Assembly (NCBI GenBank): GCA_938045315.1
Contig: CALINM010000045.1
Coordinates: forward strand, 1-9,161
Length of the DNA: 9,161 nucleotides
From: an uncultured bacterium
GTDB lineage: Bacteria; CALINM01
Reading direction: 5' to 3'
Numbering within the stretch: position 1 is the stretch's first letter; each line of letters starts with the position of its first letter. The notes under the pieces were generated by a model. It searched no databases. It was not told the origin of the DNA and worked only from the letters and a program-made list of their open reading frames with translations. The translations under genes and the position numbers were made by a program. Positions 85 to 9,161 of this stretch are shown here, piece after piece.

Positions 85-444
85 ATGACAAAAGAGCAAT
101 TAGAACAAATAAAAAAGATATTAAATGATTGGAAAAATGAAATCATAGAATCACAAAAAAAAGCTGTTCAAGAAATGGCTAAAGAAGGTGAAGAGTTGAT
201 GTTCCCTGATCCAACAGATAGAGCCACATATGAAGAAGATAGAGCAAGATTATTAAAAATAAAAGACAGAGAATTAAAATTATTGCACAAAATAGAAGAC
301 ACCCTAAAAAGAATTGATGCTGGGGAATACGGAATATGTAAAGAATGCGGTTCAGAAATTCCTTTTGAAAGATTACTTGCAAGACCTGTTACTGATCTTT
401 GTATAGAATGCAAAACTGAACAGGAAGAAAAAGAGAAAGAATGA
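85..444 (+). CDS. dksA: DksA/TraR-family RNA polymerase-binding transcription factor
   Basis: The protein has 119 residues. Proteins of this family bind in the secondary channel of RNA polymerase and, often with ppGpp, adjust initiation at rRNA, tRNA and biosynthetic promoters. Residues 1-80 are charged and helical, as expected for the coiled coil. The tip carries the functional DxxDxA motif (Asp42, Asp45, Ala47). A four-cysteine zinc finger follows (Cys85, Cys88, Cys106, Cys109; spacing C-x2-C-x17-C-x2-C), then a short acidic tail. The protein is about 30 residues shorter at the N-terminus than E. coli DksA (151 aa), which is usual for family members outside gammaproteobacteria. With both tip Asp residues and all four Cys present it should be active rather than a degenerate relative. 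It is first in the transcription unit, and its stop overlaps the next start (ATGA, 441-444). The symbol is by family; it could be a second DksA paralogue. Confidence 0.9.
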   Translation: MTKEQLEQIKKILNDWKNEIIESQKKAVQEMAKEGEELMFPDPTDRATYEEDRARLLKIKDRELKLLHKIEDTLKRIDAGEYGICKECGSEIPFERLLARPVTDLCIECKTEQEEKEKE

Positions 445-1892
445 GAAAGACAAAGATAGTTGCTACCTTATCGTCTAAAATATCTTACTCAATACTTAGA
501 GAAATGGCAAAAATTTTTGATTGTGCAAGAATAAATCTATCTCACGGGACATTTGATGATTATAAGTATATTGTAGATTCTATACGACAAATAGAAAAAC
601 AAGTTAATAAATATATACCAATCCTTTTTGATTTATCGGGTCCAAAGATAAGAGTTACTTCCATTAATAATGTTGATTCAGTTAACAGGGGTGATAAAAT
701 AATCCTTTCAAAAGAACCCACTGATCGGGGTATAATGATTAATTTCCCAGAAATTATTGATCATTTAAAAGAAGGCCATAGGATTTACATAGATGATGGT
801 AAAATAAGATTCAAAGTTAAAGAAATAAAAAGAGGCTTTGTTATATTAGAGTGCCTCACAAAGGGCATTATAAGTTTAAAAAAAGGAGTAAATTTCCCCG
901 ATACAAAATTACCCCTCCCCTCTTTAACAGAAAAAGACATCGATGACATAAAAATAATAAAAGAATTAGATGGTGATTTTGTTGCTCTGTCTTTTGTAAG
1001 GCATAAAAATGATATCCTCGAACTACGGGAAGAGCTACAAAAAAATGATCTTAATATACCTATAATAGCTAAGATCGAGAGGCCCGAAGCAATTCCAATT
1101 TTAAATGAAATTATTGATGTATCCGACGGGATAATGGTAGCAAGGGGTGATTTGGGGGTAGAATTATCTCTTGAAAAAGTACCAATAATTCAGAAGAAAA
1201 TAATTGAATTATGCAGAGAAAAGGGAAAACCTGTAATTGTGGCAACACAAATTTTAGAAACAATGGTAGATAAACCTGAACCTACAAGAGCAGAGGTTTC
1301 TGATATTGCTAATGCCATTTTTGATGGGTGTGATGCCCTTATGCTTTCTGGCGAAACAGCCTATGGACAATATCCAATAGAATCACTTAAAGTGCTCGAT
1401 TCTGTTTCAAAAGAAACTGAACTTCATTTAAAAGAACAAAAAATAATCTCCATTGAAGATTACCATTTTCTAAAGGGTGATCCCACATCAGCAATTGCCT
1501 TTTCTGCTGTAAATACAGCTTTAAATTTAAATGCTAAAGCAATCGTTTGTTTTACTGTAAGTGGACATACCGCATCTTTAATATCAAAATTTAGACCCAA
1601 AAAAACAGTATATGCAGTATCTTATAAGATTTCCACTCTTCGCAAAGTATGTCTTTTTTATGGTGTACAGCCATTAAAGGTTAAAAAAAGTAGTAATACT
1701 GATGACTTGATGTATGAAATGGAAAAATCCATCTTAAAAAACTCAAAACTAAAAGAGAAAGATTTGATTATAATGACCATTGGAATACCAGTAGCTGAAG
1801 AGGGCAATACAAACATTTTAAAAATACATAACCTTGGTGGATACTTACCATATAAGGCTAAAAAATTGCTTAATAAAAAGATGAGGGTATAA
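441..1892 (+). CDS. pyk: Pyruvate kinase, probably K+-independent type
   Basis: This 483-residue protein converts phosphoenolpyruvate and ADP to pyruvate and ATP, the last step of glycolysis, in the cytoplasm. The N-terminal barrel strand (RKTKIVATL) and substrate loop (Arg30, Asn32, Ser34, His35) are present. The family signature contains catalytic Lys211 and metal ligand Glu213, followed by MVARGDLGVE (Asp237) and Thr269 in the ATQ motif. PTRAEVSDIANA and MLSGETA are intact, and the C-terminal domain has the usual SGHTA and GNTN motifs. The length is normal. Two points are unusual. The first loop lacks the common GPAS sequence and is about two residues short. Residues 64-72 read DLSGPKIRV instead of DTKGPEIRT, placing Lys69 where K+-dependent enzymes have Glu. 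The start overlaps the dksA stop by four bases and only a weak purine-rich site precedes it, so translation is probably coupled to dksA. Confidence 0.95.
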   Translation: MRKTKIVATLSSKISYSILREMAKIFDCARINLSHGTFDDYKYIVDSIRQIEKQVNKYIPILFDLSGPKIRVTSINNVDSVNRGDKIILSKEPTDRGIMINFPEIIDHLKEGHRIYIDDGKIRFKVKEIKRGFVILECLTKGIISLKKGVNFPDTKLPLPSLTEKDIDDIKIIKELDGDFVALSFVRHKNDILELREELQKNDLNIPIIAKIERPEAIPILNEIIDVSDGIMVARGDLGVELSLEKVPIIQKKIIELCREKGKPVIVATQILETMVDKPEPTRAEVSDIANAIFDGCDALMLSGETAYGQYPIESLKVLDSVSKETELHLKEQKIISIEDYHFLKGDPTSAIAFSAVNTALNLNAKAIVCFTVSGHTASLISKFRPKKTVYAVSYKISTLRKVCLFYGVQPLKVKKSSNTDDLMYEMEKSILKNSKLKEKDLIIMTIGIPVAEEGNTNILKIHNLGGYLPYKAKKLLNKKMRV

Positions 1893-1900
1893 TTGCCTTT

Positions 1901-1906
1901 AGGAGG
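1901..1906 (+). promoter_or_regulatory. Ribosome binding site that fixes the GalT-family start
   Basis: A perfect AGGAGG ends 6 bases before ATG 1913. An in-frame TTG at 1907 directly abuts the AGGAGG and leaves no spacer, so ATG 1913 is the start. Confidence 0.9.
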
Positions 1907-1912
1907 TTGTTT

Positions 1913-2905
1913 ATGCCAGAACTGAGAAAGGATCCCGTTGCAAATAGGTGGGTTATAATATCTTCTGAAAGAGCCCAGAGACCCCATACATTTGTAACCC
2001 CAAAAATTGAAAAGAAAGTCGGTTTTTGCCCCTTTGATTATGGAAATGAACATATAACTCCTAATGAAATATTGGCCATTAGACCTCCCGGATCACCAAA
2101 AAATGCACCCAATTGGACACTAAGAGTTGTACCTAATAAATTTCCCGCTTTGAGAATTGAAGGAGATCTTAATAGGGAGGGCGATGGGGTATATGATAAA
2201 ATGAATGGTATAGGGGCTCATGAAGTAATTATTGAAACTCCTAATCATGAAGAAACTCTTTCTACTATTGATATAAAAAGGTTTCGTGATGTTCTATGGG
2301 CATACAAGGAAAGAATGGTAGATTTAAAGCGGGATATTCGTTTCAAATATGTCCTTGTTTTTAAAAATCATGGTGAACAGGCTGGGGCTTCATTAAGCCA
2401 TTCACACTCACAGCTTATCGCTCTACCAATTGTCCCTAAAAGAGTTCTTGAAGAAATTGAAAGTTGTAGTAGATACTACAATTTTAAAGAACGCTGTTTA
2501 ATATGTGATATCACAAGACAGGAAATACAGCAAGGAGTGAGAGTTGTAGCTGAAAATAAAGATTTTTTAGCCTTTTGTCCTTATGCACCCAGATTTCCCT
2601 TCGAAATATGGTTGCTACCTAAAAGGCATGAGAGTTCTTACGAAAAAATGGACGATTCTCTTTTAGATAATCTGGCTAATATTTTCAAAATTATATTGCA
2701 AAGGCTCGATGTTGTTCTTGAAGAACCACCATATAATTTTGTGCTCCATACAGCACCGTTTACGGATATTCATAGTAACTATTATCACTGGCATTTTGAA
2801 ATTATACCCAAGTTAACAAAAGTAGCTGGATTCGAATGGGGCTCAGGATTTTATATAAACCCTACACCACCAGAAGAAGCAGCTAAATATTTAAGAGAAA
2901 TATAA
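1913..2905 (+). CDS. GalT-family (HIT superfamily) nucleotidylyltransferase, possibly ADP-glucose phosphorylase
   Basis: The protein has 330 residues and two HIT-like halves. The N-terminus (PELRKDPVANRWVI) and the LRVVPNKFPAL segment are typical of the GalT family. The catalytic motif is Ser-His163-Ser-His165-Ser-Gln167; His165 would carry the nucleotidyl intermediate. E. coli GalT has His-Pro-His here. From memory, HSH plus the downstream segments FPFEIWLLPK, PPYNF and GFxxGxGxYINP match Arabidopsis At5g18200, an enzyme first labelled GalT and then shown to move AMP from ADP-glucose to phosphate. One zinc site looks complete (Cys195, Cys198, with His239 and His292 or His294 as likely ligands). 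The other has Cys39 but Asp42 where the second Cys is expected. It lies 20 bases after pyk and 12 before the ADP-glucose-using glgA, with no galK or galE in view. UDP-galactose activity (galT) remains the alternative, so I give no symbol. Confidence 0.85.
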   Translation: MPELRKDPVANRWVIISSERAQRPHTFVTPKIEKKVGFCPFDYGNEHITPNEILAIRPPGSPKNAPNWTLRVVPNKFPALRIEGDLNREGDGVYDKMNGIGAHEVIIETPNHEETLSTIDIKRFRDVLWAYKERMVDLKRDIRFKYVLVFKNHGEQAGASLSHSHSQLIALPIVPKRVLEEIESCSRYYNFKERCLICDITRQEIQQGVRVVAENKDFLAFCPYAPRFPFEIWLLPKRHESSYEKMDDSLLDNLANIFKIILQRLDVVLEEPPYNFVLHTAPFTDIHSNYYHWHFEIIPKLTKVAGFEWGSGFYINPTPPEEAAKYLREI

Positions 2906-2906
2906 T

Positions 2907-2912
2907 GGGTGA
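2907..2912 (+). promoter_or_regulatory. Ribosome binding site that decides the glgA start
   Basis: GGGTGA pairs with the 3' part of the anti-Shine-Dalgarno sequence and ends 5 bases before ATG 2918. The alternative in-frame GTG at 2909 lies inside this site and has no good site of its own. Confidence 0.65.
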
Positions 2913-2917
2913 TTAAA

Positions 2918-4345
2918 ATGAAAATTCTTTTTGCCTCTTCGGAAGTATATCCTTTTTCAAAAACAGGAGGCTTAGCGGATGTGGCTGGATCTCTTCCTGT
3001 AGCATTACGTGCATTAAATACAGATATCTCAGTCATTACACCCTTATACAAATGTGTAAAAGACAAATTCTCAGTGAGCGATACGAATTTTTCATATAAT
3101 ATCCCCATTTCTTCAAAATTTGAAGTTGCAAAAATAAAAAAAATATATTTCAAAGAGGTACCAATTTTTTTTGTTGAAAATGATAATTATTTTTATCGTG
3201 ACGGTCTATATACTGATGGGACAAAAGATTATAATGATAATGCAGAACGATTTATCTTTTTTTCAAAAGTAATTGCTGAATTCAGTTTATCAAATAACTA
3301 TGATATTCTTCATTTAAATGACTGGCAAACAGCTATGGCAGCAGTTTTCCTCAAAAAAATTTATAACTGGAAAAGCAAAATTGTACTAACCATCCATAAT
3401 TTAGGATATCAAGGTGTTTTCTGGGCCTATGATATGCAATTAACAAATTTAAGCTGGGATTATTTTACACCTCAGCTTTTAGAATTTTGGGGCAACATTA
3501 ATTTTCTAAAAGGTGGCATTTATACTGCTGATGCGATTACTACAGTCAGTCCTCGTTATACGAAAGAAATATTAACTGATGAATTTGGATTTGGACTTAA
3601 TGGTGTATTAAAAGATGTAGAAAATAGATTATTTGGAATTTTAAATGGTATAGATTATGAGGAATGGTCTCCAGAGTTAGATAGATATATTGTTCAAAAT
3701 TATAATGAAAAAACAATTACTGAAGGAAAAAGAGTTTGTAAACAAGATCTGTTAAATTCATTTGAATTAACACCTGAGACAAAAAAACCGGTTTTCGGGA
3801 TAATCTCGAGACTTGTTGATCAGAAGGGATGGGATATTATTATCGATGCTTTAGAAAATATTTTGCAACTTGATGTGAAGATAGTAATTCTTGGATCGGG
3901 ACAAAGAGAATATGAAGAAAAACTAAAAACTATAAAAAACAAGTATAAAAACAGTTTAGGAGTTTACATAGGTTATGATAATGCTCTTGCTCATAAAATT
4001 GAAGCTGGCTCTGATTTTTTTATAATGCCATCAAAATATGAACCCTGTGGACTAAACCAGATGATAAGTTTTAAATATGGCACAATACCGATAGTTAACC
4101 CAGTAGGGGGTCTTTTTGATACTGTTTATGACATCGATGAGTCAAAAGATGGCAATGGGTTTAGAATGAAAAATTATTCAACAGAAGAACTTATAGAAGC
4201 GATTAAACGGGCAATAAAACTTTTTAAAGAACCTTTAAAACTTTATGGAGTTAGAAAAAAAATCATGAAATTAGATTTTTCTTGGACTTCTTCGGCCAAA
4301 AAATACATAGAACTTTACAGGAGACTTGTTATAGATGAATCTTGA
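2918..4345 (+). CDS. glgA: Glycogen (starch) synthase, ADP-glucose type, GT5 family
   Basis: This 475-residue enzyme adds glucose from ADP-glucose to the non-reducing end of an alpha-1,4-glucan, in the cytoplasm. The start at ATG 2918 gives the family's usual MKILF N-terminus. The ADP-glucose-binding motif KTGGLADV has Lys15. His160 lies in HNLGYQGVF. Arg298 and Lys303 in SRLVDQKGWD match the phosphate-binding Arg and Lys of E. coli GlgA. Glu375 in PSKYEPCGLNQ matches the catalytic Glu377 of E. coli. The length (E. coli 477) and the two-Rossmann-domain GT-B layout are normal, and all key residues are present. The gene follows the GalT-family gene by 12 bases and overlaps the histidine kinase gene by 11 bases. 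The ADP-glucose source (glgC) and branching enzyme (glgB) are not in this window, so they must be elsewhere. Confidence 0.95.
   Translation: MKILFASSEVYPFSKTGGLADVAGSLPVALRALNTDISVITPLYKCVKDKFSVSDTNFSYNIPISSKFEVAKIKKIYFKEVPIFFVENDNYFYRDGLYTDGTKDYNDNAERFIFFSKVIAEFSLSNNYDILHLNDWQTAMAAVFLKKIYNWKSKIVLTIHNLGYQGVFWAYDMQLTNLSWDYFTPQLLEFWGNINFLKGGIYTADAITTVSPRYTKEILTDEFGFGLNGVLKDVENRLFGILNGIDYEEWSPELDRYIVQNYNEKTITEGKRVCKQDLLNSFELTPETKKPVFGIISRLVDQKGWDIIIDALENILQLDVKIVILGSGQREYEEKLKTIKNKYKNSLGVYIGYDNALAHKIEAGSDFFIMPSKYEPCGLNQMISFKYGTIPIVNPVGGLFDTVYDIDESKDGNGFRMKNYSTEELIEAIKRAIKLFKEPLKLYGVRKKIMKLDFSWTSSAKKYIELYRRLVIDES
4319..4324 (+). promoter_or_regulatory. Ribosome binding site of the histidine kinase gene, inside glgA
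   Basis: AGGAGA lies 10 bases before ATG 4335, within the last codons of glgA. It supports a start that overlaps the glgA stop. Confidence 0.7.
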
Positions 4346-6581
4346 AATTATTACAAAATTTTTAAAAGAATTTCATAAAGATTATAGTTTGTCAAATAAG
4401 ATTCAAGCCCTATCAAACCTTTTTAGTTCTATAAACATTGAAATAGCTTATCTAATTATCAATAAAAAGCCCTTTGAAATTCATAGAATCAAAGATTCTA
4501 ACTCTAAACTACAGTTGAATAGTGCTGAAATCAATATTAGCAACCATGAAATTCAACTCCCTACAGGAGAGAATAGTATAACAATTTACAATAACCCAAT
4601 TAAAGATGAATATAATACTTATGGTTGGCTCTTGATTGGACCTTCTAAAATAGATTCTGAATTAGAAAAAATCATACAAGCTGAATTAACTTGTTTTTTA
4701 AAGCATACTATCAATCAAACATTTCTAAAAAAAGCACATCAATTAGAAACAATTTGCCTTCTATCTGAACGAGTTAGTAGTTTTTACGATTTAAAACACC
4801 TTCTTGATATAGTAACGGAGTATGTAACAAAAGCATTAAATGCCAAAGGCGCAGTTATAAGACTTGTTAATAAAAATAAACAATTATTAGAGGTAATGTC
4901 TGAATATGGTTTAGAGAACGTAAATATTAGGAGATATGGCATTAAACTAGGTGATGGCGTATCCGGAGAAGTCTGGAAATCAAAGATGCCAAAGCTTGTA
5001 ATACCAGATACAAAAGAATCAGAGCAGCTTTTAAGTTCAAAGTTACGAATTAAATCTTTAATTTGTGTTCCTTTAATATTTGAAAATGATGTCACAGGAA
5101 CCTTAAGTGTTTATGAAAAGCTATCTGAAAGACCTTTTGATGAGGAGGATAAAATCTTTTTAGAAGTTATAGCTGGACTTGTTTCTCCTCTCATTGCATA
5201 TACTGAAGCTTTAGAGAGGGAACAAAGTCTGAGAAAACAAATTTCAAAAAACCTGGAAAATTTACATATTATTACGGAAATTAACAAAATAATCATGCAG
5301 CCAAGAAAAATTGATGAATTGATATTCTTAATATTGACTGCTCTTACTTTTGGGAAAGATATTGGATTTAATAGAGCTGGGCTATTTATGTATAATGCTC
5401 AAACAGGTACATTTCAGGGAATGATCGGGGTTGGGTGTAACGATGAAACAGAAATTCAGATTTGGGAAAAACTCCCAGACATGACTACAAAAGAATGGCT
5501 TGAAATAATAGACAAAAATAAAATAAAAAATGAATCAACCTTTAATAATACAATTAAACAACTAAGATTTGATATAAGCGATTTTCCATTAATTATCCAA
5601 ATACTCCGATCCGGTTCTGTTTATGTATCTAAAAAAGATGAAAAAGATATTATAAAAGAAAAATTAAACATAGAAGAGTACGCAATTGTACCTTTATTGG
5701 GGAAGGAAGATTTATTGGGTATGCTATATGTGGACAACAAATTTACAAAAAAGCCCATTGATGAAAATTATATAAGTCTACTACAAACATTTGCATCTCA
5801 AGCAGCCCTTGCTATAGAGAATTCTAAATTATATAGTGAAATAACAAATACAAATGAGCTTCTAAAGACAGCGAAACAGGAATTAATAGTTAAAGAGAAG
5901 TTAGCAACTGTTGGAGAAATGCTAACTATATTAGCCCATGAGATTAGAAATCCTCTTACTGCAATTGGTGGCTTTGCAAATATAATCTCAAAAAAATCTG
6001 AAAACTTAACAATAAAAGAACTGGCAGAAAAAATTTATATTCACGCAAGTAAAATGGATGATATGTTCAAAGAATTTTTATTATTAGCCAAACACAGCAC
6101 TTTACAATATTCAATTAATGATCTAAACGAGATTGTAGTGGAATGCATTAAAAATTTTGATTATGTGGACTCTAAAAATATATCATTTATTTTTAATAGT
6201 AATGAGAGTCTAAAAGTTGATATTGATAAAAACATGATAAAGGTTGTTCTGAATAATCTTTTAAAAAATGCCATACAGGCGATGCCAAAGGGTGGTAAAA
6301 TTACAATAGAAACAAAGAAAGAAGATAGTTATGCTGTTTTAACCATTGAGGACGAAGGACATGGCATTCCAAGTGATGTTTTACCTAATATTTTTGACCC
6401 CTTTTACACAACTAAATTTAATGGATTTGGCATAGGATTATCTATAAGTTATAAAATTATAAAACAACATAATGGTATTATTTATGCAGAAAACAAAAAT
6501 GGTGGTGCTAAATTTACTGTAAAGTTACCACTTTCAATTAAAGAGGAGGTAAAAGATGAGCAAAAGAATTCTTATAGCTGA
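4335..6581 (+). CDS. Soluble sensor histidine kinase with tandem GAF domains
   Basis: The protein has 748 residues, with no signal peptide or membrane segment seen, so it should sense a cytoplasmic cue. Residues 1-125 look like a degenerate GAF-type fold ending in the strand YGWLLIG and a long helix; no family motif is visible. A clearer GAF domain spans about 136-290 and another about 309-500; the ligands are unknown. A linker helix leads to the dimerisation domain with phospho-acceptor His535 in AHEIRNPLTAI (HExxN type). The ATPase domain has the N box (Asn640, Asn641, Asn645), the G1 box DEGHGIP (Asp673), the F box FDPFYTTK and the G2 box GFGIGL from Gly697. All catalytic elements look intact, so an active kinase is expected. 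It overlaps glgA by 11 bases and the following receiver gene by 26 bases, which makes that receiver its likely partner. The receiver-GGDEF protein downstream is a second candidate target. Confidence 0.9.
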   Translation: MNLEIITKFLKEFHKDYSLSNKIQALSNLFSSINIEIAYLIINKKPFEIHRIKDSNSKLQLNSAEINISNHEIQLPTGENSITIYNNPIKDEYNTYGWLLIGPSKIDSELEKIIQAELTCFLKHTINQTFLKKAHQLETICLLSERVSSFYDLKHLLDIVTEYVTKALNAKGAVIRLVNKNKQLLEVMSEYGLENVNIRRYGIKLGDGVSGEVWKSKMPKLVIPDTKESEQLLSSKLRIKSLICVPLIFENDVTGTLSVYEKLSERPFDEEDKIFLEVIAGLVSPLIAYTEALEREQSLRKQISKNLENLHIITEINKIIMQPRKIDELIFLILTALTFGKDIGFNRAGLFMYNAQTGTFQGMIGVGCNDETEIQIWEKLPDMTTKEWLEIIDKNKIKNESTFNNTIKQLRFDISDFPLIIQILRSGSVYVSKKDEKDIIKEKLNIEEYAIVPLLGKEDLLGMLYVDNKFTKKPIDENYISLLQTFASQAALAIENSKLYSEITNTNELLKTAKQELIVKEKLATVGEMLTILAHEIRNPLTAIGGFANIISKKSENLTIKELAEKIYIHASKMDDMFKEFLLLAKHSTLQYSINDLNEIVVECIKNFDYVDSKNISFIFNSNESLKVDIDKNMIKVVLNNLLKNAIQAMPKGGKITIETKKEDSYAVLTIEDEGHGIPSDVLPNIFDPFYTTKFNGFGIGLSISYKIIKQHNGIIYAENKNGGAKFTVKLPLSIKEEVKDEQKNSYS
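6544..6549 (+). promoter_or_regulatory. Strong ribosome binding site of the receiver gene
   Basis: AGGAGG ends 6 bases before ATG 6556 and lies inside the 3' end of the kinase gene. The strong site suggests the small receiver is made in good amount relative to the kinase. Confidence 0.85.
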
Positions 6582-6918
6582 TGATGAAGAAAATATAAGA
6601 ACACTCTATAAAATTGAATTAGAAGAATCTGGCTATATAGTAGATTTAGCCAGTAATGGGAAAGAAGCAGTAGAAAAAGCAAAAGAAAAACTACCGGACC
6701 TTATAATACTTGACATAAAAATGCCAGTGATGGATGGCATCGAAGCTCTTCACATGATAAGACAGCTACCTAATGGAAAAGATGTTCCTATAATACTTTT
6801 CACTGCCTATGGTGAATATCAACAGGATTTTACAACATGGGCCTCTGATGCCTACATTATTAAAAGTCATGATATGACGGAACTTAAAACAAAGATAGAA
6901 GAACTCTTAAACAAGTAA
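6556..6918 (+). CDS. Single-domain response regulator (CheY/Spo0F-like receiver)
   Basis: The 120 residues form one receiver domain and nothing else. The acidic pair Asp9 and Asp10, phospho-acceptor Asp53 (in LIILDIKMP), Thr83 and Lys103 are all in place, so phosphorylation should work. There is no DNA-binding or enzymatic output domain. It must act by protein contact or as an intermediate in a phosphorelay. The usual Pro after the conserved Lys is Ser104 here (KSHD), and Trp95 precedes it in a TTWASDAYIIK segment. I believe this variant recurs in a subfamily of stand-alone receivers, though I cannot check it. The gene overlaps the kinase gene by 26 bases, so the two are probably a cognate pair. 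The receiver-GGDEF protein encoded one gene later could be a second member of the same pathway. Confidence 0.93.
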   Translation: MSKRILIADDEENIRTLYKIELEESGYIVDLASNGKEAVEKAKEKLPDLIILDIKMPVMDGIEALHMIRQLPNGKDVPIILFTAYGEYQQDFTTWASDAYIIKSHDMTELKTKIEELLNK

Positions 6919-6919
6919 T

Positions 6920-7894
6920 ATGTTTGAAAAACTTAAAATTGTTGAATTAGCAATGTACTTACCACTACCATATACTGGTGCTTTTTTTGCAAACTTTGGT
7001 GCTCATGTAATAAAAATAGAACATCCCGAAGGTGATCCTTTGAAAAAATTAGATTTAAAAATTTACCAGACACTTAACAAAAAAAAACAGGTAAAATATA
7101 TTGATATAAAAGATGATAAAAATAAAGCTTTGCTAATTGATATCTTAAAAGATGCTGATATCCTTTTGAATGGTTTCAAACCAAATTTTTTAAAGAGATA
7201 CAATCTTGATTATGAAGCAATAAATAATATAAATCCATCATTAATATATATTTCTCTTTATGCTTATGAAAAAAATACCCCCTTAGAAAATATTGCAGGA
7301 CATGATTTGAATTTTGTAAGTCTATCAGGTATAATTGGAAGTTCAAAAATTGCATTGAAACCTTTCAATTTTCAGATGGCAGATATGGCAGGAGCTTTGT
7401 GGTCAATTATTGGAAGCTTATATATGTTAGAAAAAAGAAGAAAAACAGGTAAAGGTGGGAAATTGGATTTATCACTATTTAGATCATCTCTTACCTTTTT
7501 TCCCTTCTTTTACTTTAGTGAAGAAAAAGGAGAAATTCAGAATGGTATTTTATATGGAGACTATGCTTGTTACGGTATTTATAAATGCAAGGATAGTAAA
7601 TATATAGCTGTAGGCAGTTTAGAACCCAAATTTTTTAAAAAATTATTCAAGCTTTTGAAAATAAATTTTGATGAGGACAAACTATACTCAAAAAGAGAAC
7701 AAAGATATTTAAAAAATTTACTTAAAGAAAAATTTGCAACTCAAACCCGAGATTATTGGACAGATTTTTTCAAGAATGAAGATATATGTATTACGCCTGT
7801 TCTGGAAAAGAACGAAACATTAAATTTATTGAAACATTGGTTAAAGGAAGAGAATATAGAAAATTTTTTACTATTCCCTTTCGAGGATAATTAA
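6920..7894 (+). CDS. CaiB/BaiF (family III) protein, alpha-methylacyl-CoA racemase-like
   Basis: The protein has 324 residues. The family includes CoA transferases and 2-methylacyl-CoA racemases. The N-terminal nucleotide-fold segment (KIVELAMYLPLPYTGAF, then FGAHVIKIEHPEGDP) is typical. The catalytic set of bacterial alpha-methylacyl-CoA racemase is recognisable: His128 in GHDLNF, Asp155 in ADMAGAL and Glu235 in AVGSLEPKFF. These would correspond to His126, Asp156 and Glu241 of the mycobacterial enzyme, as I recall its numbering. The His argues for racemase over CoA transferase, which needs only the Asp. At 324 residues it is shorter than the usual 360-400, mainly at the C-terminus, but I see no frameshift. 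It starts one base after the receiver stop without a clear Shine-Dalgarno site, so it is probably translationally coupled. Its place between two response regulator genes is unexplained. The substrate is unknown. Confidence 0.8.
   Translation: MFEKLKIVELAMYLPLPYTGAFFANFGAHVIKIEHPEGDPLKKLDLKIYQTLNKKKQVKYIDIKDDKNKALLIDILKDADILLNGFKPNFLKRYNLDYEAINNINPSLIYISLYAYEKNTPLENIAGHDLNFVSLSGIIGSSKIALKPFNFQMADMAGALWSIIGSLYMLEKRRKTGKGGKLDLSLFRSSLTFFPFFYFSEEKGEIQNGILYGDYACYGIYKCKDSKYIAVGSLEPKFFKKLFKLLKINFDEDKLYSKREQRYLKNLLKEKFATQTRDYWTDFFKNEDICITPVLEKNETLNLLKHWLKEENIENFLLFPFEDN
7883..7887 (+). promoter_or_regulatory. Ribosome binding site supporting a GTG start
   Basis: GAGGA lies 7 bases before GTG 7895. 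This supports a GTG start immediately after the stop codon of the preceding gene, where no ATG is available ahead of the receiver domain. Confidence 0.7.
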
Positions 7895-9161
7895 GTGAAA
7901 CCAAGAATTTTAATAGTAGATGATGATCGGCTTTTTTTAGAACAATGCACTGATATGCTTGTAGATTTGGATGTGGAATTATTAATTGCTTCAAGTGGTA
8001 AAGAGGCATTGGAAATAAGTACTGAAAAGAAGGTAGATCTTATTATCCTTGATCTGATACTTAAAGACATGAACGGTGAAGAAGTATTTGAGATAATCAA
8101 AAATAAGAATACAGACATAGACTTTATAATTCTAACAGGTTATGCAACTGTTGAATCGGTAATAAAGCTAATGAAAAAAGGTATTTTTGATTTTATAAAA
8201 AAACCTCTTATACCTGAAGAATTCAAATTTTCAATTTTAAAATGTCTCAGACAAAGAGAAATAATTAAAGAAAATAAAAAACTAAGAGAGTGTCTTTATT
8301 TATACGATTTAGCAAAAATTATCACCTCATCCTTAGAATTACCCAAAGTTTATGATAACATTCTAATAGCTCTGTCAAATTATTTGCCGGATAGCGGAAT
8401 AATAATATACAATGCAGATATTACAGATTACCTGGAAGTAAAGGCTTTCTCAGGATTTGACAGATATCAGATGATAGAACTTAAAGATAAATTACTTGAA
8501 TTTATAAGTACAAGTCTTTCAAATCTTAAAAACACAGAAATTTTGAGCTTTTCTATAGAAAAACTGAAAAATAACATTTCTTTAAAGTATAATAAATTCA
8601 CCATAATACCCTTTGAAAACATCTCAAAAAAAATTGGGTATATTTTTATTTTTACAGAAGATTTACCACTGGAAAAACAGGAAGGATTAAAATTCTTACA
8701 AAAACATATAAAATTGGGCATTGAAAATGCTCTAACATTTATAAATGCTCAAGAATTAGCCTATATAGATGACCTTACTAAAGCTTATAATATTAGATAT
8801 CTCTATGTTTCTCTCGAAAATGAACTAAAAAGGGCTGAAAGATTTGGAACAAATGTTTCAGTTTTATTTATAGACCTTGATTTTTTTAAAAAGGTAAATG
8901 ATCAATACGGACACTTAGTGGGAAGTAAGTTATTAATAGAGTTCACAAATGAGATAAAAAAGTGTGTAAGAGGCATAGATACCGTAATCAGATATGGAGG
9001 AGACGAATTCATAGTGATATGCACTGAAACAGATGTGGAATTAGCTAAAAAAGTTGCTGAAAGATTGAGGAAAAGGACAGAAGAATGCGAATTCTTGAAA
9101 AAAGATGGATATTCAATACATATAACCTGTTCGATCGGGATAGCAACTTATCCTATTCATG
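7895..9161 (+). CDS. Receiver / GAF-like / GGDEF nucleotide cyclase, candidate Hypr type; 3' end cut by window
   Basis: The frame is open from GTG 7895 to the window end, giving 422 residues without a stop. Residues 1-120 are a receiver with acidic residues Asp9-Asp11 and phospho-acceptor Asp53 (LIILDL), a TGYATVE segment with the conserved Thr, and FIKKPL with the conserved Lys. Residues about 135-285 look GAF-like but carry no clear motif. A GGDEF domain starts near 290. It has the metal Asp327, Lys332, Asn335, the active-site RYGGDEF (368-372) and an inhibitory RxxD site (Arg359, Asp362) five residues upstream. The window stops in the SIGIATYP strand, so perhaps 30-40 residues are missing. 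The Asp that normally recognises guanine in GHxxGD is Ser344, as in Hypr enzymes that make cyclic AMP-GMP. It may therefore be a cGAMP synthase rather than a plain diguanylate cyclase. It starts directly after the preceding stop and is probably controlled by phosphorylation. Confidence 0.9.
   Translation, partial: MKPRILIVDDDRLFLEQCTDMLVDLDVELLIASSGKEALEISTEKKVDLIILDLILKDMNGEEVFEIIKNKNTDIDFIILTGYATVESVIKLMKKGIFDFIKKPLIPEEFKFSILKCLRQREIIKENKKLRECLYLYDLAKIITSSLELPKVYDNILIALSNYLPDSGIIIYNADITDYLEVKAFSGFDRYQMIELKDKLLEFISTSLSNLKNTEILSFSIEKLKNNISLKYNKFTIIPFENISKKIGYIFIFTEDLPLEKQEGLKFLQKHIKLGIENALTFINAQELAYIDDLTKAYNIRYLYVSLENELKRAERFGTNVSVLFIDLDFFKKVNDQYGHLVGSKLLIEFTNEIKKCVRGIDTVIRYGGDEFIVICTETDVELAKKVAERLRKRTEECEFLKKDGYSIHITCSIGIATYPIH

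Follow-up and report, generated by a model that had tools for sequence, protein, structure and literature searches.

The window, a stretch of 9,161 nucleotides that constitutes an entire contig (G000:C45) of a 1.86 Mb genome in 244 contigs, opens with dksA and with three genes that we take from their sequences to be pyk, galT and glgA. These are followed by a histidine kinase, a stand-alone receiver, a CaiB-type CoA-transferase and a cyclase gene (Table 1). The cyclase reading frame (7895-9160, +) has a GTG start, is the last of the window, and is open at the contig end. The organism itself has the whole gene, and the split is an assembly break that leaves few residues unseen, because contig C153 of the same genome starts with the matching C-terminus (KTELIELADKAMYRGKELSRNIVCVAEKG, then the stop) and carries hisS and aspS after it. 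Another candidate for the lost C-terminus, L011, was rejected, being on the wrong contig. The stop codon of caiB abuts the start codon of the cyclase, so the two are probably co-translated. The CoA-transferase (324 residues) sits between two receiver-domain genes and nothing evident ties it to signalling. Within the genus and family of the window (three genomes: G000, that of the window, and its relatives G001 and G002) the gene order dksA-pyk-galT-glgA-kinase-receiver-caiB-cyclase-hisS-aspS is conserved, giving a mixed operon that joins genes for sugar metabolism, signalling, and tRNA charging. An Rfam scan of the window gave no match at gathering scores, only sub-threshold noise. Relatives of the cyclase were absent from the viral contigs searched, and a search of plasmids returned only distant GGDEF matches (<60% identity).

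Table 1. Position of the genes, domains, and active-site features of the window.
Feature	Position	Strand	Basis or remark
dksA, pyk, galT, glgA (upstream operon genes in conserved order)	85..4345	+	
Histidine kinase, GAF-GAF-HisKA-HATPase	4335..6581	+	Pfam; kept in G001 and G002
Stand-alone receiver, its gene overlapping that of the kinase	6556..6918	+	Pfam; kept in G001 and G002
CaiB-type CoA-transferase, family III	6920..7894	+	
REC-GAF-GGDEF protein (predicted GacA-type Hypr GGDEF)	7895..9161	+	422 residues in the window, ~454 in full
Receiver domain	7907..8224	+	Pfam PF00072, 80 bits
Linker domain of GAF fold, flanked by a signalling helix	8327..8764	+	AlphaFold2 of the segment; Foldseek/VIA-align
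GGDEF domain, predicted Hypr type	8759..9161	+	PF00990, 128 bits; fit to 6d9m; trees
Ile300, cross-dimer base-stacking position	8792..8794	+	Alignment with 6d9m
Ser344 (AGT), Hypr specificity residue	8924..8926	+	Ser348 of GmGacA, Asp344 of PleD
RxxD inhibitory site, R359-G-I-D362	8969..8980	+	
YGGDEF active-site loop	8993..9010	+	Asp370 needed for the Ser/GGDEF combination (PMC6456294)

The domain architecture is the REC-GAF-GGDEF of GacA orthologues. The receiver has Asp9, Asp10, Asp53 (GAT, 8051-8053), Thr81, and Lys103. Pfam recognises nothing in the middle segment, neither in this protein nor in the Geobacteraceae relatives of GacA. Folded alone with AlphaFold2, this segment is a GAF domain (pTM 0.80), and the best matches of the model among solved structures are GAF domains (Z 14-15, Foldseek/VIA-align). 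Across relatives it aligns at ~14-23% identity, and when profiles of three-member alignments were compared the probability was only 34.5%; the depositors of 6d9m label GmGacA as GAF domain-containing. The original prediction that the segment differs from that of GacA is thus correct for the sequence but not for the architecture, where a diverged GAF fold occupies the same place. A non-homologous GAF-like segment was ruled out by the fold, despite the ~20% sequence identity. The AlphaFold2 model (mean pLDDT 87) superimposes on the GGDEF domain of Geobacter metallireducens GacA (6d9m) with an rmsd of 0.8 Å over 135 residues (54% identity, Z 22.0). The same structure is the best PDB sequence match, with 142 bits against 128 for PleD, and the alignment bears out the expected equivalence of Ser344 with Asp344 of PleD.

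The active site can be read directly from the reading frame: D327 LDFFK332 KVN335 DQYG339 H L V G S344 ... R359 GID362 ... R366 YGGDEF372. As originally noted, Ser344 stands where GGDEF domains have the Asp that recognises guanine, while the rest of the domain is intact and retains Asp327, Lys332, Asn335, the GGDEF motif, and the RxxD inhibitory site. General decay, also discounted at the outset, is ruled out because these other residues are all intact and conserved. Three features associated with Hypr enzymes are present. First, such enzymes have Ser or Thr at the base-recognition site (PMC6456294), here Ser344, and their published motif is GHL(I/V/A/F)GS (PMC10333796). Second, they have GGDE(F/Y), never GGEE (PMC6456294), and the window has RYGGDEF, with Asp370. 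Third, the cross-dimer position is Arg in most diguanylate cyclases, and the Hypr enzymes that make mainly cGAMP lack this base-stacking Arg, with Tyr304 in its place in GmGacA (PMC6456294); the window has Ile300 there. Hence neither of the canonical features of diguanylate cyclases, Asp at the guanine site and the cross-dimer Arg, is found. One point against cGAMP synthesis is that Ile is not among the cross-dimer residues discussed in PMC6456294 (Tyr, Ser, Ala, Gln, and Arg). The altered base-recognition residue and the intact RxxD might also be expected of a catalytically poor or inactive domain that senses c-di-GMP by means of its I-site, but this is very improbable: the catalytic and metal residues are all intact, conservation across the family is strong, and Ser is active in combination with GGDEF, only the combination with GGEEF being dead (PMC6456294).

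The serine is unlikely to be there by chance, because Ser or Thr occupies the guanine-recognition position in 0.17% of GGDEF domains (PMC9140294), whereas 2 of the 12 GGDEF matches in the window's genome have Ser, and because orthologues with 80% and 56% identity have this Ser too. At the published rate, the chance of finding at least one Ser among 12 domains is 0.02, and that of at least two is 1.9e-4. The three features also go together in a comparison sample of 152 distinct GGDEF domains (31 with Ser/Thr, 115 with Asp). Every Ser/Thr domain has GGDE (31/31) and none the cross-dimer Arg (0/31), whereas Asp domains have GGEE in 45/115 cases and the Arg in 72/115. Fisher tests give p-values of 4e-6 for GGDE/GGEE and 2e-11 for Arg, both overstated because related sequences are not independent, and the former further biased, the latter less so, because part of the sample had been collected by means of a GGDE pattern.

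Two trees place the protein with GacA. When the three trait columns were masked in the domain tree, the Ser label required 2 changes, against 28 with shuffled labels, and the window grouped with GmGacA and Geobacteraceae proteins, even if many forks are weak. This confirms the expectation that the domain falls with GacA rather than among ordinary cyclases. In the full-length tree, where these columns were left unmasked, an 18-member clade (support 100/99) holds the window's family, the REC-GAF-GGDEF proteins of Geobacteraceae and Myxococcus, and others; support is weak for the window and Geobacter being closer to each other than to Myxococcus. The full-length proteins of relatives in Desulfuromonadales and Geobacteraceae align colinearly throughout, at 34-37% identity. 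A sporadic Ser in an ordinary cyclase is ruled out by the masked tree together with the full-length orthology. Gene order provides evidence of orthology that is independent of the active site. The gene hisS lies directly downstream of the cyclase in the window's genome (across the contig break) and in both relatives, and the same holds for L048 and L049 (Desulfuromonadales, Geobacteraceae) as well as for the genomes G319, G255, G119, and G059, the arrangement being found in Geobacteraceae MAGs and in other families; in L050 the cyclase is followed by aspS. The clade also has members without an adjoining hisS (L052, Myxococcus). Since the protein falls in the well-supported clade and shares the hisS order with its relatives and several Geobacteraceae genomes, the best interpretation is that of a GacA orthologue, and the linkage to hisS could serve as a simple marker of such orthologues.

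From the residues, the predicted fold, the orthology, and the gene order we infer that the gene very probably encodes a homodimeric REC-GAF-GGDEF Hypr enzyme that makes mainly 3',3'-cGAMP. The proposal of a cGAMP synthase, made initially from Ser344, is now strengthened by the GGDEF motif, the non-Arg residue, the tree, the full-length colinearity, and the hisS synteny. It is improbable, if conceivable, that c-di-GMP or a broad mixture is the main output of the enzyme and cGAMP only a minor product. Hypr enzymes do behave promiscuously when purified and assayed in vitro, the D-to-S mutant of GSU3350, a GGDEF-type cyclase, is still a pure diguanylate cyclase (PMC6456294), and two natural Hypr enzymes with the cross-dimer Arg make more c-di-GMP (PMC6456294). 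Yet the window's enzyme lacks this Arg and is a member of the native GacA clade, whose Geobacter and Myxococcus members make cGAMP. As a synthase of mainly cGAMP, the protein would bind one ATP or GTP in each half-site, with Ser344 hydrogen-bonding either purine and Asp370 holding the Mg-triphosphate at the right distance, while Ile300 would do away with the guanine-favouring cross-dimer Arg. The side product would be c-di-GMP, and the RxxD site should allow feedback inhibition. The receiver and the GAF domain might set the dimer geometry in answer to a kinase, perhaps that of the operon, and/or to a ligand.

Control by a phosphorelay, the other part of the original prediction, fares less clearly. 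The intact receiver residues and the histidine kinase in the operon speak for it, but the D52A variant of G. sulfurreducens GacA keeps normal cGAMP production (PMC6456294). Judged from the sequence, control of the cyclase by phosphorylation is plausible, since the receiver residues are present and kinase and receiver genes lie two to three genes upstream; operon position makes this kinase a candidate partner. A GacA-type protein from a Geobacter sp. MAG (L052, 8992-10428) has Glu at the phospho-acceptor position, which suggests that phosphorylation may be dispensable there.

The expectation of cGAMP-class riboswitches failed. Searches for GEMM-I found none in the genome of the window, nor in either relative, against 10 in each of three control genomes of Geobacteraceae/Desulfuromonadales; the genomes of the window's family being 84-92% complete, one riboswitch could escape, but hardly ten in all three. 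GEMM-II was found in none of the genomes searched, controls included. The lineage of the window thus lacks the riboswitch receptors of the GacA-cGAMP-GEMM-Ib pathway of Geobacter. This absence does not refute cGAMP synthesis, since one Myxococcus genome searched also has no GEMM-I match, yet GacA and GacB of M. xanthus make cGAMP in vitro, and the HD-GYP enzyme PmxA degrades it (PMC8844925). As no GEMM-I recognisable by Rfam is found in the lineage, cGAMP is probably read out by proteins. The genome has 3 PilZ matches (one below the family cut-off) and 7 HD-GYP matches, and such proteins could be part of a cGAMP network. The question is thereby sharpened to what reads cGAMP without a GEMM riboswitch, and GacA-bearing genomes without GEMM-I, such as that of the window and the one searched from Myxococcus, are a place to seek protein receptors of GGDEF-made cGAMP.

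The second Ser-bearing GGDEF protein of the genome (L047, G000:C138:9432-10487, minus strand) is a GAF-GGDEF protein of 351 residues with GHIYGS, RYGGDEF, and Thr at the cross-dimer position; relatives of it occur in G001, in G002, and across several further families. The window's lineage is isolated and poorly sampled: outside its own family, nothing is closer than domain level among the genomes compared. The chances seem to us evenly balanced that this lineage has a two-enzyme cGAMP network (REC-GAF-Hypr and a GAF-Hypr paralogue) with protein receptors, and a REC-Hypr gene that has stood beside hisS since before the split from Geobacteraceae or was transferred with it. In that case GacA would have begun to make cGAMP earlier, or would have moved more readily between lineages, than the published origin in ancestral deltaproteobacteria implies, because the REC-Hypr-hisS neighbourhood would either predate this split or have moved jointly. 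Other variants were seen along the way. Three REC-type GGDEF proteins of the Hypr branch carry Gly where Asp or Ser would stand, together with GGDE(F/Y) and a cross-dimer residue other than Arg: L200 (G278:C1:100389-101801, GHLLGG), L209 (G141:C8:45980-47380, GHLMGG), and L051 (3050-4558, GHLTGG). In Acidobacteria gp2 MAGs, L083, L101, and L116 have Ser GGDEF domains (NYR, GHL(V/T)GS, RYGGDEF) outside the main Hypr branch, possibly a second origin of the trait. Among the NCBIfam matches listed there is no Hypr-type model, so inventories of c-di-GMP enzymes miscount Hypr enzymes, and automatic annotation would label this cyclase a diguanylate cyclase.

Compared with known systems, the enzyme shares with PleD the GGDEF fold, the metal and phosphate residues, the I-site, and the receiver input, but PleD has Asp344, GGEEF, and the cross-dimer Arg where the window has Ser344, GGDEF, and Ile300. 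Bd0367 of Bdellovibrio has the same Ser specificity residue and an I-site (PMC9140294), whereas that paper mentions no GAF domain for it; Bdellovibrio-type Ser domains (L071 and L088, Bd0367 itself not being in the trees) form a branch neighbouring that of the window in the domain tree. Like the window's genome, Myxococcus xanthus has two Hypr paralogues, GacA and GacB (PMC8844925), and GEMM-I is missing from the sampled Myxococcus genome, but its locus shows no linkage to hisS. The closest counterpart is GacA of Geobacter (GSU1658 / Gmet_1914, PDB 6d9m), with which the protein shares REC-GAF-GGDEF, the Ser, GGDE(F/Y), the non-Arg residue, and RxxD, as well as the hisS that adjoins the gene in Geobacteraceae relatives. 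It differs from it by a cross-dimer residue that is Ile and not Tyr/His, by an acceptor Asp53 that is intact and accompanied by histidine kinase and receiver genes in the operon, by caiB instead of a ComEC-like gene upstream, and by a genome without GEMM-I. The type of enzyme is therefore already known, and what is new is the missing riboswitch, the second Hypr paralogue, and the lineage that hosts them.
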